From assembly GCA_963281255.1 (NCBI GenBank), contig OY725499.1:2054096-2118095 (forward strand): a stretch of 64,000 bases of DNA, read 5' to 3'. Position numbers and translations under genes: made by a program. Origin of the DNA: Aphrocallistes beatrix. Its lineage: Eukaryota > Porifera > Hexactinellida > Sceptrulophora > Aphrocallistidae. The notes below the pieces were generated by a model, which worked only from the letters and a program-made list of their open reading frames with translations, did no database searches and was not told where the DNA came from. Of this stretch, positions 4,159 through 61,480 are shown in pieces; the stretch's first letter is position 1, and every line of letters starts with the position of its first letter.

Positions 4159-6491
4159 ATTTAGAATGGAAAGAATTTAAGAAAATACAAACAAAGTGAA
4201 AGTAGAGAGAACAATCGCAATCATATACTAGCAACGTAAGAAACTCTAATGACCACCCATGTCGCGTAGAATAATTAATTCACTTTCAGCAAGCTAAGCC
4301 TATTGTCTTGAAACTTTAACACCAGCACAATGACGAAAATCAATAATCCTAATAATAGGACAGTGTGTTAGTTGGTACAGATATTTCTCTACGATTAGTA
4401 GCAGTAATTATGTGAGCAGATATTTCCTTACACAGTCAGCAGCAATCTGATAGTGCAAGTTCTCGTCGTAAGAGAGGTATTTAACTAGTAGCAAGTAATA
4501 CTACTCTTCGTTCATTGATTCAGAATCAAACGTAGTTTCTTATTTGCTCTCTTTCTTTCCAAGATATTAAGATGTTATTTTGATTCTAGTCGGTTCAAAT
4601 TTAATCTCTGATGATTAAATTGGAGCAAGGTTGAGACCAGTTTCATTACCATCATGCATGAAAACTATTTTCTTCTCCCACAAATTCATAGTTTATATTT
4701 ACTTAGATCGTTCAAAATAGGATTCCTACCAATAGTTTATTTGTACTTGGTGTGCTTTTAAATTGTCATACTAACGAATATAGTTTTATTCCAGCTCTAT
4801 TTTCAAGAGAAACATGCACTGCAGCTGAATTTTATCAATAAATCAAATACGAAGCAAAAATTATTTGTTCGAAAAATATATTCCGGCGTAAAAATTGTTC
4901 GGTCGGACATATTTTTCGAAATCTTATACTCTTTCGTAAAAACTGTCCGGATCCAAAAAATTTCATGTTTAATCAATTATAGAGCATGAGAAGTCAATTT
5001 AGTCGTCGTCAAATCATCATATAATTTCCGTTTTCTCATCAAAGATGACAATTATTTTTATCAAGGTATTATACAGGCAACATGTCTACAATGCACTCTT
5101 CTAATATTAATAAATCCCGATGAATCTCATAGATCTAATCACTGAATGACAGTATAAGAGAGAAGATTATTACTGAATACTTCGAACTACTGAATACGTC
5201 TATTATTGATAAGATAGACGACCGTACTCGGATCTAATTAAGGGATGATTCTCTTTGCATATCTTCGGATGTCTAATTAAAAGTGACCCACTCCAATGGT
5301 GAATACACAGAGTATCCGAGAAGAGAGTATTTCAGTGATTTGTTTTTGTGCTGGAGATGAATCGTTTTTGAGGTTTCTTATTCACAATACATTTATATAT
5401 TAACTAATTATAATTTGATAGAATCTTAAAAACTATATTCTTCATTCAAACCTTTACGATACAGCGCAGATTTCGAATTATATTTTTCAAAATGAAGATT
5501 CATCAGTGATTGATTTGCAAGAAGTGGAAGTAATGGACACTACAATAGCAGATGATGTATTGATTAAATTGATTGCAATGAAAGGAGAGAAGCAACAGTA
5601 TTTATAAAGGATATTGCCTCTCCAAAATGCAAATTGACGACGAGCAAATTAACTTTCCAATATGTGAATTTGTGGATTGGAAAAGCCTTCCCTAGTGCAA
5701 GCGTTCTGCCTGAGCATTTATCTGTTTTTTAGTTAGAAATAAGTGAAATGTTAATCTCCTGGTATAAAGAAGCAAATGAAGTAGATAAGATCGTGATAAA
5801 GCTACTTCTGGGATAAAAAGGTCATCGAATATGTCATTAAGGTTTTATATGTAGTCATTGATCCATTACTACAGGAGCAAGGTACAGAACCGATAGAATG
5901 TGTGTACAACCAGTGACTTAGAGGATCTTTGTGTCAACTGAGGTGGATGGTGCAATAAAATATCCATTGAAAACACATGTACAGTCGACAATACAGTCGA
6001 CAAAATATAAGATGCGATCACTAAAAGCGGTATAGATATAAACGTAGATACAGTTAAGCTGTTAGATATGTTGCATGACAGTTTTACGAGCCGTTATCTG
6101 TATTCAGAAGTTAGTAGAATTATCCTATTTTCGATTTGTCCATTGTATAGCTCGGGATCAGCTTTAGATTTGCATACATAATTACTGTGATAGGACAATC
6201 ATTGTGGTTCCTACATCCGATTTAAGTACATCAGTTTAGGATACTGCTTTTTGTATCCCAGGAAGCAATCCAGGGTATTAATAAATCCTAAAACATGCTC
6301 AACATTAATTGAGAAAATTGCACAAGCAGGATCAGTTTCTACATCTATGATATTCTGTTAAGTTTAATATGTAATTTAAGATAAGGTATAATATGCATTT
6401 CATAGAACTCAGAATAGTTATATATGCCCATTGGAATAAAGTAGCTTCAGATTATTTCATTATTTTATTATTTTTAAAATTTATGATTGAG
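4159..6491. other. Intergenic, no gene recognised
   Basis: AT-rich interval between divergent genes (cadherin minus, TRAF-like plus), so both promoters must lie here. Around 5490-5990 there are short protein-like stretches with many stops in all frames; I could not tie them to a family. Two TACAGTCGAC pogo-like end motifs stand at about 5981-6002 without a partner. Confidence 0.4.
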
Positions 6492-12406: not shown

Positions 12407-13445
12407 GCCTCACAGTAACTCGAGGATTTGGGACTAGGGATGCGATAGAAGATGGTTGAACTACGTAATACATGAGCTGCCTCAAATGATTAACAAAGCA
12501 CAATAGAGCCTAGGAATGTATTACCAGCATATATAAATATGGTGTCAAAGTACCCATATCCGTTGTTAAAATTTAAATTAGTCACCATTGGTTGCGCAAT
12601 ATGTTATATTTGTGACAAATTTGGTGATTTTCAGAGCCGTTTAGGGGCACTTCTAAGTGTCTTTATATAAGATTTTTCGCATAGAACTAAGATGTGAATG
12701 GGTTAATACGAAAAATTTGGAATTTTTTAATGGAATGTTGCTACATTCCAGTGTTGCTATGGAAACGTGTTTTGGTCAGTTGGGATTATATCTTGAAAAC
12801 TGCAATAGCTAAACATTCAATGTAATTTCATTTGATAGCGAATATACTACTTACTATTAAGCAATAATACAATTTCTACGTCTAAATTCAATGGTTTACG
12901 AGATATTCGACAAATTACCAAATGTGACCAATATGATAAATCGTCGAATATCTCGCAAAACATTGAATTTGGACGTCGAAATTATATTATCGCTTAATAG
13001 GAAGTAGTATAATCGCTATCAAATGGAATTACATTTGAATGTTTAGCTATTGCAGTTTTTAAGATATAACCCCAACTGACCAAAACACGTTTCCATAGCA
13101 ACACTGGAATGTAGCAACATTCCATTAAAAAATTCCAAATTTTTCGTATTAACCCATTCACATCTTAGTTCTATGCAAAAAATCTTATAATAAAGACACT
13201 TAGAAGTGCCCCTAAACGGCTGAAAATCACCAAATTTGTCACAAATATAACCTATTGCGCAAATACATGGTGACTTATCTAAAATTTAACAACGGATATG
13301 GGTACTTTGACACCATATTTATATATGCTGGTAATACATTCCTAAGCTCTATTGTGCTTTGTTAATTATTTAAGGAAGTTCATGTATTAGTTCAACCATC
13401 TTCTACCGCATCCCTAGTCCCAAATCCGCGAGTTACTGTGAGGCC
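12407..13445. repeat. Foldback repeat, 1.04 kb, arms of about 500 bp
   Basis: Starting GCCTCACAGTAACTCG, the left half pairs almost base for base with the right half, ending at CGAGTTACTGTGAGGCC near 13445. The axis is near 12926, with a loop of under 30 bases. Landmarks in both arms include GGTGTCAAAGTACCCATATC, CACTTCTAAGTG, GGAATGTTGCTACATTCCAG and TTGCTATGGAAACGT. Other copies lie at 16.8 kb (internally deleted) and 60.7 kb, with fragments at 1-40/529 and 34.4 kb. No coding sequence was found. The end type and target duplication are unclear. Confidence 0.9.
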
Positions 13446-16822: not shown

Positions 16823-17372
16823 GCCTAACAGTAACTTGTGTATTTTGGACTATGGATGCGATAGAAGATGGTTGAACTAATACACGAGCTACCTTAAATA
16901 ACCACGCAGAATAGACCTTAGGAATGTATTACCAGTATATATAAATATGGTATCAAAGAAACTCAAATCCGTTGCAAAAATCTATGAAAATTTAGTGATT
17001 TTCAGAGGCGGTTTACGGACACTTCTAAGTGTTTTAAATATAAAGTATTTCGCATAAAACTAAGCTGTGAATGTTCATGTGAAAAATTTGTAATTTTTTC
17101 ATGGAACATTGCTACATTCCAGCGTTGCTATGGAAACGTATTTTGGTCGGTGGGGTCATATCTTGATAGCCAATAAACTACTTCCTAGTAAGCGATAATA
17201 TAATTGCTATGTCTTATTACAATTTATCTTAATAGTCATATTTTTATATTGCGACTAATCAAACTTTTGCAACGGATATGAGTACTGTGATACCATATTT
17301 ATATAGACTGGTAATACATCCCAAGGTCTTTTCTACGTGGTTAATGATTTAAGGTAGCTCATGTCTATTTTG
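16823..17372. repeat. Foldback repeat, internally deleted copy
   Basis: Same family as 12407-13445. The left arm (GCCTAACAGTAAC..., ATGGATGCGATAGAAGATGG, CTACATTCCAGCGTTGCTAT) is nearly complete, but the right arm is short. The sequence jumps from the centre to TTTTGCAACGGATATGAGTAC, then runs outward. It has diverged more than the 12.4-kb copy. Confidence 0.8.
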
Positions 17373-17820
17373 AATAACTCAAATTCATTTAATAAAATTG
17401 AATATACGTAGTATATGATAAATTTTCATATTTAAAAAGTATTTCCTATTTCATTTACCGTTGAATTAGTAGAAATACTAGACTGGATGAATATCCTGGG
17501 GGGGTTCACCTTGTTGACTAAATCCATGTATTATAAGATGGGATACGCTGACTTGCCTAGTTAACAAGATCATTAAATACCTAAGATTCGATCCATCGGT
17601 ATTCCAATACCCCTGAAGCAGAAATCCCCATTACAAACTCATATGTAAGCATCGTCTATACCAGTGGCGGGCAACCTTAATCCTTAAGTGGGCCCCAAAT
17701 CTGTCAGTTCTTGTTATGGTCAGACGTAGCAAGAACTGACATTAGAAACCTATATCGAAACAATGTAACAACTAAAATTATTAGTCAGGTCAATATGATG
17801 CATGACCCCAAAAAATTGCA
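17373..17820. other. No gene recognised
   Basis: AT-rich. CCAGTGGCGGGCAACCTTAATC at about 17661 looks like a hAT-type end without a partner. A short local repeat of GTCAG.TCTTG and its complement occurs at 17703-17740. Confidence 0.35.
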
Positions 17821-18433
17821 AGAAATTGTTTTATTGCATTTTTCCGTTGTATCATGTCTTAGGAGTAACATACTAAAAGTTTACCGAAATCAGAATATCA
17901 GAAAGTGATTTGACACGACCCTGTCGTTGACCCCGGACTATAAAAATCGCCGGTTTTGAAAACTGAGATATAACCTTTCAAATGATTACAAATCACTTTT
18001 TATGTCATATTCGTGCTCAGCATCGAAATCCCGGCAATTTGAAATATATATTGACTATATTTTGAGCAAAGAATTTTGGGCCTTACCCTAGCAACAACCT
18101 GGAATGTAAAAATTCCGATCTCCAAATTGGCGAAAACGATATCGAGTGAGCCCTTGTTTTTCTCGGCTATGCTTGCTGAGTACGAATTTCTTAATATAAA
18201 TAGTCTACACGTTAGTTTTAAAATATTTTGGTTTGCGGCTGGTGGTATTCATGTATTTTTAACGGTAAACATACTCATAAATGTTTGTTTTGTCCCTTTA
18301 ACTCCTATGAAATAAAAGAATGGAAAATTTAGGTGGCATAGATGGATTGATATGTTCACATTTCAATTTCATCTTCGGTTTCATCATCCGATGCAATTCC
18401 TTCTTTCATATGACCACAGTTGTCATCTTGGCA

Positions 18434-18690
18434 TCATCCGTATGCTTGGGAACAGTTGAGTCCTTGTTTTCTGCAGCTACATCTACATCTGAGACTGCTA
18501 CAGCCCGTGGAACAGTTACAGTGGATCATTTTCAGGAGTGCTTCGGGTGCAGGGTTACTGTCCAACATGACTGGGATTAGGCTGTTATCTTGGCAGCTCC
18601 ATCCCCATTCGGTGACCTCCATACCATCAGCCATGCCCATCCACATCATCAGCTGGAAATAGCACCTCAGAGAGTGAAATTTCGTGGCGG
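18434..18690 (-). pseudogene. Inverted C-terminal copy of the same unnamed protein
   Basis: The minus strand reads KFHSLRCYFQLMMWMGMADG, then VTEWGWSCQDN and the same cysteine cluster as the plus copy. It keeps about 20 residues (RCYFQLMMWMG...) deleted from the right-hand copy, so together the two arms show the original order. The frame reads on past 18434 through the acid-rich tail. Upstream of 18690 the protein similarity stops abruptly at the junction with the plus copy. Confidence 0.75.
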
Positions 18691-18699
18691 AAGCAGTAG

Positions 18700-19618
18700 T
18701 AATAAGGAGGATTCCCTTTCCAATCAAGCCAACAAACAGGCCCTCATCCGTCTCATTTCTGAACCCATGAGAGAAAGAGGGTGCCATGTAATACAGGCTG
18801 AGGAGGATGCCGATGTTGACATTGTGAAGGCAGCAGTATCAATGGCATCCTTCAAGACAACAACTCTCATAGGCGAGGACATGGATCTATTGGTTCTGTT
18901 GCTGCACTACACTCCTAACACAATGCTAAGAAGATATACTTCCGCTCGGATAAAGGGAAACCAACCGTAGTGTCTGATATCAAGGTGATAAAGCAGGTGC
19001 TTGGGGACGAAATCTGCCACAGCCTGCTTTTTCTGCATGCATTCACCGGGTGTGACACCACTTCCAGCATTTTCTAGTTCGAAAGAAGTCTGCTCTGTAC
19101 AAGTTCAAAGAGGATTCCATCAGCTATGCTAGGGTGTTTTCTGCACCAAACCAAGACCCAGTTGTGAAAGAAAGCACTGGTTATAAGTCATGATTGCGTT
19201 GTTCAATGCAAAACCTGGGGACAGTCTTCGCGACTTGAGATACACTATCCTCTGCAAGAAAGTGAGTGCAGCCAAAAGCTTCGATATCCGAAAGACTGCC
19301 ACTTACAGCCTCCGCCACGAAATTTCACTCTCTGAGGTGCTATATGGAGGTCACCGAATGGGGAATTGGGGATGGAGCTGCCAAGATAACAGCCTAATCC
19401 CAGTCATGTTGGACAGTAACCCTGCACCCGAAGCACTCCTGAAAATGATCCACTGTAACTGTTCCACGGGCTGTAGCAGTCTCAGATGTAGATGTAGCTG
19501 CAGAAAACAAGGACTCAACTGTTCCCAAGCATACGGACGATGCCAAGATGACAACTGTGGTCATATGAAAGAAGGAATTGCATCGGATGATGAAACCGAA
19601 GATGAAATTGAAATGTGA
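18700..19618 (+). pseudogene. Unnamed repeat-borne protein: PIN-like motif region plus CXC-like cysteine cluster
   Basis: Reading through several frame changes gives a protein with an acidic motif series (EEDADVDIVKAA, then LIGEDMDLLVLLL, then LLFLHAFTGCDTTSSIF) and a C-terminus with WGW..., DSNPAPEALLKMIHCNCSTG and a cysteine cluster (CRCSCRKQGLNCS...C..D.C). The spaced acidic residues resemble the D/E clusters of PIN/FEN-type nucleases. The cysteine spacing resembles a Tesmin/TSO1 CXC zinc domain. I recognise the protein as an uncharacterised family common in invertebrate genomes, but know no name or proven function. Stops at 19071 and 19191 and frame changes make this copy dead. The N-terminal half is missing because the inverted left copy begins there. 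Confidence 0.7.
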
Positions 19619-20156
19619 ACATATCAATCCATCTATGCCACCTAAATTTTCCATTCTTTTATTTCATAGGAGTTAAAGGGACAAAACAAACATTTATGAG
19701 TATGTTTACCGTTAAAAATACATGAATACCACCAGCCGCAAACCAAAATATTTTAAAACTAACGTATAGACTATTTATATTAAGAAATTCGTACTCAGCA
19801 AGCATAGCCGAGAAAAACAAGGGCTCACTCGATATCGTTTTCGCCAAATTTGGAGATCGGAATTTTTACATTCCAGGTTGTTGCTAGGGAGGGCCCAAAA
19901 TTCTTTGCTCAAAATATAGTCAATATATATTTCAAATTGCCGGAATTTCGATTCTTAGCACGAATATGACAATAAAAAGTGATTTGTAATCATTTGAAAG
20001 GTTATATCTCCGTTTTCAAAACCGGCGATTTTTATAGTCCGGGGTCAACGACGGGTTCGTGTCAAATCACTTTCTGATATTCCGATTTCGGTAAACTTTT
20101 AGTATGTTACTCCTATGACATGATACAACGGAAAATGCAATATAAAACAATTTCTT

Positions 20157-20781
20157 TCTTACAATAAAAACAAAAATAACGAAGTAAAATAAATTGAATC
20201 ATTATATAATTATTATAGAAAATACTATATTGATATTTAGCATCAATTTCAACACCAAAATTAGGCGGGTCCATTTTGTATTACAATCACTCTATTACAA
20301 TTACTAGCATCAATGTTGACTTATCACTTCTGCATACTTGCCAACTGTCCCGCTTTTACATGAAATTTCCCCATTATGTCCCGCTTTTTTTTTACTCATG
20401 TATAATAATTTTCTATTGCGTCCCGCCATGTCCCGCGAAATTCAACGCTGCGTCCCGTTTTTTATCATGGCTCAAGTTGACATGTATGCTTCTGGTTCAT
20501 GAAACTAATTTAAATGGGGAATATTATTATACACCTGATGCAAATCTTTTTCTCAGAATAATAGTACAACTTTGCCATTAGAGCATCTTCATATAGTGGC
20601 TGCTAGCTGCCATTAGTTCTACATCAACAATTCAACACGTAGGGCAGCTCTAGTGATGTATACTGTATAAGTAATATGACTCCTTACTTTCATGGTTTAT
20701 TTTCACAATACCATAACCTTCTAATATGGAACTAGAACCGTAACAGTGTTTATTTTTATTCATTTACTTTCATACTTCATA
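20157..20781. other. Intergenic, possible old MITE
   Basis: The stretch 20325-20500 has five TCCCGC/GTCCCG blocks (CTGTCCCGCTTTTACATG, CGTCCCGCCATGTCCCGCG). Outer sequences CATACTTGCCAACT and the complement of CATACATGTCAACTTG could be decayed ends. The TRAF-like promoter must lie in the last few hundred bases. Confidence 0.35.
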
Positions 20782-21948
20782 ATGGCATCTCAACAACATG
20801 TGGCTGACACCATGGATGATCTCCTCTACGTGAAGAGGTCTGTAGGAGGTAAGACTAAGTACTGTGGGTATAGGAGGGAGTATTTAAACCGAGATCTAAT
20901 TGAATTCGAGAAAGAAATTTCCATTTGTAAGCTTTGTGAAGGAATAATGAGGAAAGCTAGTCTTGTGAACGAAGAAACAACTTGTCAGTTGTGAAGTGAG
21001 ACTCCAAACAAATTGAGTGCTGTTAAATTGGTTGAGAATTGCGTTAATAAACTAGAAATAAAATGTCCTCTTCTCAGAGATTGCCAATGGAAAGGGAAAC
21101 TATCAGAAGCTGAAAATCATTTGAAAGAATGCGCTCGCTTTCGTATTGGTTGTAAAGATTGCAAAGAAATTGTTACAAGAAGTGACATGAAGGCGCATAC
21201 ACAAAATGACTGTCCAATGCGAAACATTAAATGCTTATTTTGTATAAAAGTTTTACATGCAAAGGATTTAGAAATGCACCACAGCGAATGTTCACTCTTT
21301 CCTATTAAATGTCCCAAAGAATGTAGCAAAGAATTCCCAAGAAAGAGATTATCTCAACACAAAACTGAATGTCCATTAATTGAAGTGAATTGTCCTTATA
21401 CTAAATACGGATGTAAAGCTAAACCAATGAAGAGAAAAGACCTCCTATCTCACAAGAAGGAGTTTATAATAGAACATATGGACATGGTTGAAACCAAGAA
21501 TCAAGAATTAGAGGTAGAAATGAATGTGTTGAAATCAGAGCTGAAAATAATGAGGAGAACTGATGGACAGGAATGGAAGTTATGTGATGTAGATCAAATG
21601 ACCGATAGACGAACTGTTACGAGTCCAGATTTCTGCGTAAAAAATTACAAACTAAAATGTTTTTGTATGTTCAATACCTGGTTTGGTGGTGTTCTTAGTT
21701 TCTCGATACAACGAGTTAAAGGAGACCGTGATGCTAACCTGGGAGTAGCAGCTATTACAGAATGTCATATCATACTTCAAAAGAGTGATGGGACACAGAG
21801 ATCCTATGACAGGTCAATCGGTTACCCATTACAGATTGGTACAGTTAGCGAGGTCTTTTATAATTTGAATAGTTTGGACTACGAACGATTTGTAACTGTA
21901 GATAAGTCCTTAAAAGTCGTACTCTACTTCGATATTAAGGATCTTTAG
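20782..21948 (+). pseudogene. TRAF-type zinc-finger gene with one in-frame TGA
   Basis: Paralogue of the gene at 6492, 388 codons plus stop. The frame is open throughout except for TGA at codon 71 (20992-20994). Order: degenerate RING-like N-terminus (C49KLC52 and C68QL-stop), one set of TRAF-type fingers (about 93-210: CPLLRDCQWKG, C..C...H...C repeats), coiled coil (about 230-255), and a MATH-like C-terminus (SPDFCVKNYKLKCF ... FYNLNSLDYERFV). The TGA replaces exactly the second cysteine of the CxxC that the intact paralogue keeps as C69EAC72. All else looks functional, so this is a very recent null allele, an assembly error, or a read-through codon. A re-start at the Met at 21013 would give a 311-residue form without the RING-like part. 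AATAAA lies at 22014. Confidence 0.85.
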
Positions 21949-23129
21949 ATCAGTTGTGACGGAGGATTATTTCTTTTTTATTTAGATTAATCTTAAAATA
22001 ATGCCTAACTAGAAATAAATCCTGTTAGTCCATTTCTTTTGGCGCTTTGATGCTCAAATACTATGTAATACTATCATGGATGTTTGTATATTATTGTTTT
22101 GCTATTTTGTATAAAATGTATAATCAATATTTTAACCAGCAATGCCCGCGCCCATTTAGATTTTGCCCACCACTATTTTTTTCATCTAGGGCGGGAATGT
22201 GCCCACCCAAAAAAAATGGAGATGCGCCTATGCTCACTTCTACTCCAATATATCATATACAAATGCTACCTACAAATAGAATCGAATCATTATTGCAATA
22301 CCGAGCTAAAATCGAGTTTCTTATAGACTAATGATTTAAAAGTTTTTCTCGCTTCAATTTATAAAATGCTTGCTGTTTTATTAATTTTAACTGTACAGAA
22401 AACTGAAATAAAACCTCTCGTTGTAAGGGAATTATTAGATCAGCAGCAGAGTCATTCAATTTATCAATTTGTCGTGGTGGCTGTCTATTGGTGAATTTTC
22501 ACGCTTTATTTTGCGACTAAATAAGAAGTTTTTACCTCTACTTCGAATCTCCTCACAAAAAACAGATTCTCCTTCTGATGGTATTTGAAATAGATTCACC
22601 GTCCCAGAAATCCCGCTGAATGCTGGATGTGATCAAAATGTGATTAATTTAGCATCTCTGAGCAAGAAATATAATATAATAGAAATGTTGATAGTTAGTT
22701 CTTAGTTATTGTATTTAGAAAGTAATTTGAATCGACTATTATTTTTAAAGGCCATTTGAACAACTAGATAATTTAATGATCTAATTAGTTCATTATATTT
22801 TAAAATAATCCCGAATCGATTCGAGTTAATAATTATGCACATAAATAAATTCTTAGTGAATACGGCCTCAGATCATGACCTTTGAGTGACCGGAACCAAT
22901 GTTGTCACGGGTAACCACCATTGTATATGATGGCATTGGTGGTACGAGGTGGCACAATTTGAAAATGTTTAACCTTGTGGTAGAGTGATCGAGTGGAAAC
23001 AATGTAAATGAGTATTTTGAATGTGGAGAATTCGAATTTAAAGTTATATTAAGTTTATCTCTAACAAATTAAATGCCATTGACTTGCTAAATTGCTTAGT
23101 ATTATAACTATTTACATGGTTAATTTTAA
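21949..23129. other. Intergenic between TRAF-like copies
   Basis: Polyadenylation signal AATAAA at 22014-22019 follows the upstream gene. At 22137-22230 lies a CCCGCGCCCATTTAG/GGGCGGGAATGTGCCCACC patch that resembles decayed inverted ends. The rest is AT-rich without a recognisable gene. Confidence 0.4.
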
Positions 23130-23530
23130 TCAGAGCTGAAAACAATGAGGAGAACTGATGGACAGATGTGGGAGTTATGGTAGACAAAATGGCTGATGGA
23201 CGAACTGTAATGAGCCCAGATTTCTACGTAAAAAAATGTAAACTAAAATCTTTTTGCAAATTTGAATCTTTATATGGTGACGTTCTCCATTTCTCGATAG
23301 AGATTTAAAGGAGAGAATGATGCTAATTTGGGAGCAGCAGTTATCACAGAATGTCGAATCATACTTCAGAAGAGTGATGGAACACAAAAATTATTTCATG
23401 GCTATATCAATTATCAACTAAAGATTGGTGCAGTTGGTAAGGTCTTCTACAATATATTTAGTTTGGATTACGAGCCATTTCTAGCTGCAGATAAGTCTTT
23501 AAGTTAACAGTCATACTGGAGTTTAGGACA
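23130..23530 (+). pseudogene. Degraded third TRAF-like copy (C-terminal part)
   Basis: Nucleotide similarity to 21535-21940 is clear (GAGGAGAACTGATGGACAG, GACGAACTGT, CCAGATTTCT.CGTAAAAAA, GTTTGGATTACGA). Translation follows the MATH-like C-terminus (ITECRIILQKSDGTQK) but is broken by stops and frameshifts, and the zinc-finger part is missing. It is also followed by an AATAAA (23609). It records tandem duplication of the TRAF-like gene. Confidence 0.85.
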
Positions 23531-60651: not shown

Positions 60652-61480
60652 TAGAAATGTATTACCAGCATATATAAATATGGTGTCAAAGTACCCATAT
60701 CCATTGTTAAAATTTAGATTAGTCATCATATGATTGCGCATTAGGTTATATTTGTGACAAATTTTAGTGATTTTCAGAGACCGTTAAAGAGCACTTCTAA
60801 GTGTTTTTATTATAAATTTTGTTGCATGGAAGTGAGCCGTGAATGGGCTCATGCGAAAATTTGGATTTTTTCATGGAATGTTGCTACATTTCAGTGTTGC
60901 TATGGAAACGTATTTTGGCCAGTTGGGGTCATATCTTGAAAACCGCAAGAGCTATACACTAAAATTTTATTCTATTTGATAACCAATATACTACTCCTCA
61001 TTATGCGATAATATAATTTTATGTCGAAATTTAATGGTTTACGAAATATTCGACAAATTACCAGATGTGACCAATATGATAAATTGTCTAATAACTCGTA
61101 AACCATTGAATTTAGACATATAAATTATATTATCGCATAATGAGAAGTAGTATATTGGTTATCAAATAGAATAAAATTTGAGTGTCTAGCTCTTGCGGTT
61201 TTCAAGATATGACCCCAACTGGCTAAAATACGTTTCCATTAGCAACACTGGAATGTAGCAACATTCGATGAAATATTCCAAATTTTTCGCATCAACCCAT
61301 TCACGGCTCACTTCTATGCGCCAAAATTTATAATAAAAACACTTAGAAGTGCCCTTAAACGGTTTCTGAAAACCACTAAATTTGTCTCAAATATAACCTA
61401 TTGCGCAATCATTGATAACCGATCTAAATTTTAACATTTGTGGGTACTTTGACACCATATATATATATATATATATATAC
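60652..61480. repeat. Foldback repeat, second near-complete copy
   Basis: Same family as 12407-13445: axis near 61065, arms of about 400 bp, with TACCAGCATATATAAATATG at the left and a TA microsatellite at the right where the 12.4-kb copy has ATATTTATATATGCTGG. Arms pair well, so the structure is maintained or was recently formed. Confidence 0.88.

Follow-up and report, generated by a model that had tools for sequence, protein, structure and literature searches.

A palindromic repeat in Aphrocallistes beatrix is probably a broken copy of a nonautonomous, AcademX-like fold-back DNA transposon family

A 2.38-kb palindrome in the genome of the hexactinellid sponge Aphrocallistes beatrix is most likely a broken member of a fold-back DNA transposon family that is nonautonomous and derives from an AcademX-like element. 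It was found in a 64,000-nucleotide stretch of contig OY725499.1, called the window here, and coordinates refer to the window unless a copy is named. The palindrome is real, and it is the mobile unit itself, not a local accident. Judged by its sequence, the family appears to be a known kind of transposon in fold-back form.

Layout of the window palindrome

A repeat search placed the inverted arms at 17820–18698 and 19304–20156, matching in blocks of 484 nt (99% identity), 164 nt (97%), 91 nt (92%), 54 nt (91%) and 40 nt (95%). In one gapped alignment of the window arms, 17820–18623 and 19343–20156 were 96.9% identical over 816 columns, and an extra arm block of 40 bp pairs 18659–18698 with 19304–19343 at 95%. 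The 2.38-kb unit is mostly arm (816 + 40 columns), and 20 further copies are similar. Long terminal inverted repeats that form the bulk of an element define fold-back (long-TIR) elements, and the window unit is built in this way. The features of the palindrome are as follows.

17779..17781, no strand: left half (TAT) of a presumed 3-bp target-site duplication, the right half being gone with the right end; based on the 3-bp duplications in other copies
17782..17823, plus: terminus A, adjoining the antisense arm, TAGTCAGGTCAATATGATGCATGACCCC...; 0 mismatches to the A pattern
17820..18698, minus: antisense arm, an inverted duplicate of the 3' end of the element, with C-terminal coding part and 3' flank; repeat search and gapped alignment
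18434..18838, minus: frame with the protein C-terminus of the antisense arm, including the cysteine cluster; open reading frame
18699..19303, plus: unique centre between the arms, starting at a junction common to 19 of 20 copies; copy alignments
18713..18970, plus: XPG-I-like half of a putative FEN/XPG-type nuclease domain with DADVDIVKAA and GEDMDLLVL; near its end the open frame departs from the protein frame; profile comparison
19045..19065, plus: TGCDTTS, occupying the position that GCDY has in EXO1/XPG and read in another frame; family alignments
19187..19618, plus: open frame of the sense C-terminus, 143 aa; open reading frame
19304..20156, plus: sense arm, C-terminal coding part and 3' flank; repeat search and gapped alignment
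19454..19558, plus: CXC-like cysteine cluster (CNCSTGCSSLRCRCSC...C); translation, by eye
20157..20160, no strand: break-off point; about 50 bp of terminus B are missing, together with the target duplication; best fit to the B pattern has 13/32 mismatches

The C-terminal frame is present in both window arms (plus, 19187–19618; minus, 18434–18838), in agreement with the preliminary description of two opposite copies of one protein's C-terminal region with arms of about 850 bp. That description also had the central plus-strand copy extend toward three acidic motifs. DADVDIVKAA and GEDMDLLVL do share one plus frame (18581–18970), but TGCDTTS (19045–19065) sits in a different one, and the window copy is therefore frameshifted. 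The left edge of the element is at 17782, about 40 bp to the left of the start given earlier. The right terminus, end B, is absent from the window copy, the best fit to its pattern over 17001–23000 having 13 mismatches in 32 positions. A tandem repeat search of 17782–20156 returned only three two-copy rows with units of 10–11 bp, and no direct repeats of at least 30 nt were found in the window arms by the repeat search.

Copies across the genome share a junction, ends and target-site duplications

The genome searched was an assembly of 100.5 Mb in 28 contigs. The centre peptide gave 92 match rows, from which the best 20 places besides the window (L009–L028) and five further places were compared. 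In 19 of the 20 copies a single alignment spans the antisense arm into the centre across 18699, so that these copies have a common inner junction; L026 is the one copy without it. Among the 150 C-terminal peptide matches listed (281 candidates), 82 form 41 divergent inverted pairs that lie 755–1798 bp apart, and no convergent or same-strand (tandem) pairs were present within 2.5 kb. Because the layout recurs across the genome, the pattern in the window is far beyond chance.

The family has two constant, slightly unlike ends, A (TAGTCAGGTCAATATGATGCATGACC...) and B (TAGTCAGGTCAAAATAGGAAGCAAATAGTCCC...). At no more than 3 mismatches the A pattern matched 103 places in the genome and the B pattern 99, with no match for either pattern written backwards. 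All 99 B places and 100 of the A places were typed for opposite-facing pairs within 9 kb. An opposite B place was found in this distance for 52 A places, and 29 of these 52 pairs span one of 79 listed nuclease centres. The centre-spanning pairs range from 1.4 to 5.1 kb in length, 17 of the 29 falling between 2.0 and 2.45 kb, and end pairs longer than 5 kb exist in the genome. Two such long pairs that have no centre hit lie at C2:1953527–1960171 and C2:2886847–2892625. From a set of 1.9-kb end pairs without a centre hit, the one sampled (L055) has the same layout reduced by deletion, its arms being 479 bp long at 96%.

Both ends could be read in 10 of 22 copies (L009–L030). A 3-bp target-site duplication was present in all ten and a 4-bp duplication in none; in 10,000 permutations of the flanks, 3-bp duplications appeared in 2.0 of 10 copies on average and in 8 at most. 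L016 and L024 have mutated end bases, and their edge was therefore placed by the end pattern. The common junction, the 41 divergent pairs and the 3-bp duplications together point to a fold-back, nonautonomous DNA transposon family. The genome-wide collection of copies thus upholds the earlier proposal of a mobile element, since common ends and target-site duplications are present, and it excludes single-copy, syntenic host genes without common ends. The picture of two mere neighbouring copies of one protein has to be given up, as the palindrome is itself the mobile unit and encodes no complete protein. Palindromes are liable to assembly and library artefacts, but an artefact or a chance inverted duplication was rejected as extremely improbable here on the unequal ends, the unique centre, the duplications in 10 of 10 copies and the 41 recurrent pairs.

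In some copies an open frame is long enough to cross from the antisense arm over the junction into the nuclease half (L013, 3504–4292; L019, 3547–4146; L028, 3866–4459; L030, 3753–4403), and the frame in L013 has an ATG start and 263 aa. Estimates of dN/dS were 0.51 for the centre (23 copies, mostly picked by similarity to the window protein, which biases the value low), 0.96 for the sense arms and 0.54 for the antisense arms (21 copies each). As the three values disagree, the selection test was not used in the conclusions.

History of the arms

An arm tree was made from 39 arms, with both arms present in 17 copies. The two arms of a copy are sisters in 9 of the 17, including the window copy (support 0.86–1.0), compared with a maximum of 3 and a mean of 0.31 when labels were shuffled. 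With gaps omitted, identity between the window arms is 98.6% over 767 positions, and their best match to the other sampled copies is 95.7%. The remaining 8 copies have no sister arms, and left and right arms group separately in L015, L019, L021, L027 and L028. Averaged over 18 copies, identity was 0.958 to the own arm, 0.972 to the best arm of another copy and 0.926 to other copies in the mean. Since the own-arm value lies below the best other-copy value, conversion between arms would be frequent but not general.

The centre does not keep one orientation relative to the ends. Of the 29 end-paired copies with a centre, 17 have end A on the side of the antisense arm and 12 have it on that of the sense arm. 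The division is 16 to 4 for the 20 copies whose ends are readable, and a tree of their centres requires at least 3 changes, near the value for shuffled labels (mean 3.8). The occurrence of end A on both sides and the changes on the tree suggest that the centre was turned round, or that tips were exchanged, several times. Sister arms in 9 of 17 copies and a reversed centre in 12 of 29 indicate that the arms recombine with each other. Copies with the centre reversed relative to ends A and B include L014, L016, L026 and L030; L026 also has no antisense arm.

Like arms within a copy could also have arisen if each palindrome had formed independently at its locus, for instance by hairpin or template-switch repair. 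The sister arms in 9 of 17 copies agree with such an origin, as do the window arms, which resemble each other (98.6%, gaps left out) more than any other sampled copy (95.7%). Separate formation is nevertheless unlikely, for it would have to produce one inner junction in 19 of 20 copies and put the same A and B ends on the copies (10 of 22 copies; 52 pairs). In addition, the separate grouping of left and right arms in the five copies named above is what one palindromic ancestor would be expected to leave. The lack of a fixed side for each end (17 to 12) is explained by arm-to-arm recombination within one palindromic family. With dozens of dispersed members that have matched arms and flipped centres, the family is a natural system in which to study inverted-repeat conversion.

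A probable half domain of an XPG/FEN-type nuclease

A family profile was made from eight family pieces and compared with a profile of host EXO1, XPG and GEN1 pieces over the XPG_I cut-off, these names having been assigned by reading of the sequences. With columns set by the first row, the two profiles aligned over 106 columns with a score of 50.0 (E 1.1e-6, probability 91); 200 column shuffles reached at most 26.9, and a reversed control 12.0. The same comparison with the server's settings was weaker (104 columns, probability 72, E 3.4e-5). The alignment pairs the acids, an EDSD-type motif and the GCD motif, which is followed by G-x-G as in FEN1, EXO1, XPG and GEN1. Ordered acidic active-site motifs with a GCD motif, as seen in the family alignments and the profile, are the mark of PIN/FEN-type nucleases. 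These comparisons support the reading of the acidic motifs as half of an XPG/FEN-type nuclease domain, and the earlier suggestion that the acids belong to a PIN/FEN-class active site gains from a score of 50.0 against a shuffled maximum of 26.9. The family protein resembles the PIN-like (XPG-I) enzymes FEN1, EXO1, XPG and GEN1 in the order of its acid motifs and in GCD followed by G-x-G, but unlike them it is transposon-borne and is missed by the Pfam XPG_I model.

Run over the genome at E ≤ 10, that model gave 5 matches, none of them in the palindrome family. The protein pieces had no XPG match by sequence in Pfam, NCBIfam or the PDB, and their Pfam and NCBIfam scans returned chance-level matches only, apart from the neighbouring TRAF gene. 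A structure model of an 87-aa window fragment had a mean pLDDT of 55.8 and a helix-strand-helix-strand order, and the model of a second window fragment had a mean pLDDT of 35.9. A PDB fold search with the low-confidence 87-aa model gave no match at E ≤ 0.001, and none of its 50 listed chains is of FEN type.

The palindromic unit begins inside the nuclease domain, and a frame that reaches the GCD region was found in only 5 of 21 distinct copies (L009, L010, L013, L021 and L029, from 28 frames). A complete nuclease encoded by the palindromic unit itself was rejected. The cysteine cluster had been proposed to be a DNA-binding CXC domain. Its spacing does resemble, by eye, that of a CXC (tesmin/TSO1-like) domain, but no Pfam family was found for the 143-aa C-terminal frame.

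Distant relatives

The distant members L031–L033 are broken and are 36–41% identical to the family in the nuclease part. L031 and L033 are 89–92% identical to each other in DNA over three stretches of 414–1715 bp and 79% identical over 537 bp at the right end. Both carry upstream protein regions, and their right ends (TAGTCTGGTCAA... and TTGTCTGGTCAA...) are similar to the ends of the window family. Judging by the upstream regions and the similar right ends, elements with such ends would be the ones that carry the full protein. The upstream part of L033 includes a VFDG-type region, which resembles the N-terminal motif of XPG. No full-length relative with the same ends and the N-terminus was found, as upstream and N-terminal probes gave only distant, mostly broken members.

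The upstream protein regions of L031–L033 and L050 had at best a weak match to DUF6589 (E 0.073, in L032). The use of DUF6589 as a marker of Academ was set aside, a literature search for the term having found no papers. Searches for relatives in viral contigs and prokaryote genomes gave 148 and 111 pattern stretches, respectively, and host EXO1 as a query for such relatives gave 1 stretch; none was confirmed. Spacer-less palindromes of about 1 kb lie near two distant nuclease members, at 4188–5265 on the reverse strand of L032 (79%) and at 4977–5979 of L051 (74%).

In the preliminary description the palindrome was tentatively assigned to an undescribed mobile element, which on this view would be moved by its own PIN-type protein. 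The nuclease domain is real by profile and many copies have common ends, which agrees with that account. It is nonetheless unlikely, for the mobile unit starts inside the nuclease domain while a VFDG-type region lies upstream in the distant L033, and few copies (5 of 21 distinct ones) have a frame that reaches the GCD region. The word undescribed also fails, since AcademX, a nuclease-bearing lineage with a duplication of 3–4 bp, is in print (PMC10045372). Derivation of the palindrome from an AcademX-like element is preferred.

Classification and comparison with known fold-back elements

The nuclease of the AcademX lineage is XPG-like. According to PMC10045372, AcademX is a lineage of Academ with a 3–4 bp target-site duplication and an encoded nuclease, and PMC10294476 names Academ as one of 17 DDE/D superfamilies, with a mean length of 5565 bp for its curated elements. 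The 3-bp duplications in 10 of 10 copies fall in the range of AcademX. A nuclease of XPG type was detected as a half domain by profile, though Pfam XPG_I gave no match, and the DDE/D transposase of Academ is absent from the nonautonomous palindromic unit. As duplication length and nuclease fit AcademX, the two characters on which the assignment is based, the family is called AcademX-like. The palindrome family is like AcademX in its 3-bp duplication and nuclease gene, and the distant members found here have a similar right end. It differs in being nonautonomous, in the coding sequence contained in its arms of about 860 bp and in carrying half a nuclease domain with two C-termini.

Elements of the P superfamily have a P-type transposase and a longer target duplication. 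Membership in this superfamily, that of Galileo, was ruled out by the 3-bp duplication and by Pfam searches in which no transposase domain was found. According to PMC3573991, the arms of Galileo in Drosophila are 98–100% identical within a copy, and repair from the other arm, which extends the repeats inward, has been proposed; the same paper describes Galileo and FB arms as internally repetitive. The Galileo elements there termed 'two recombinant TIR' resemble the palindrome family in having long TIRs with recruited internal sequence. The palindrome family is unlike Galileo in its superfamily, its 3-bp duplication, its arms, which are not internally repetitive, and the absence of any transposase domain found. 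No description of fold-back Academ elements was found among the papers listed in searches of the open-licence literature.

Proposed origin

An ancestral full-length element with a transposase, an XPG nuclease and the cysteine cluster would have lost its 5' part, and a repair event may then have put an inverted copy of its 3' end onto the other end. By analogy, the other-arm repair proposed for Galileo would yield such a palindrome from an AcademX-like 3' end. The palindrome could subsequently have been mobilised in trans, with ends A and B as the sites at which the transposase of a full-length relative acted. Its arms would have recombined following insertions or in the time between them, conversion making many arm pairs alike and crossovers, or tip exchange, reversing the centre with respect to the ends. 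The window copy would later have lost its right terminus and gained frameshifts. With the right terminus lost and the frame shifted, it is presumably immobile and without a nuclease product.

A more elaborate scheme, in which the palindromic state is part of the life cycle, seems decidedly unlikely. An XPG-class nuclease from a full-length relative would act on hairpins or cruciforms of the arms, which would be re-copied or exchanged with each excision or repair; the arms would thereby be kept matched and the centre flipped, while tips A and B would persist as transposase sites.

The origin preferred above suggests that a nuclease-bearing transposon lineage is able to spawn fold-back elements with arms taken from the tail of its own gene. 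Such gene-tail fold-back would parallel that of Galileo, which belongs to an unrelated superfamily. Transposon debris may also account for one set of protein fragments known as uncharacterised and present in many copies.

Neighbouring features

Two other palindromes in the window have no spacer, at 12407–13444 (1038 bp, 92% self-complementarity) and at 60670–61468 (799 bp, 89%). Both share sequence with an inverted-repeat element at 16882–17364 and represent a second, unrelated fold-back family. The element at 16882–17364 is MITE-like, about 480 bp long, with terminal inverted repeats of about 100 bp at 86%.

The dispersed palindromes of the transposon family are candidate sources of double-stranded RNA, and the window palindrome, if transcribed through, would give a long hairpin from arms of more than 800 bp with 97% complementarity. 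That the inverted repeat serves to silence the family by giving rise to small RNAs is very unlikely, given that here the shape is the mobile form of the family. Unrelated spacer-less palindromes also occur elsewhere in the window, and the palindromic shape alone therefore says little about silencing.

A TRAF-type zinc-finger gene lies at 20995–21948, and an apparent second, damaged copy at about 23128–23507. The two TRAF copies share 52-nt stretches that are 90% identical, at a spacing of 1595 bp.
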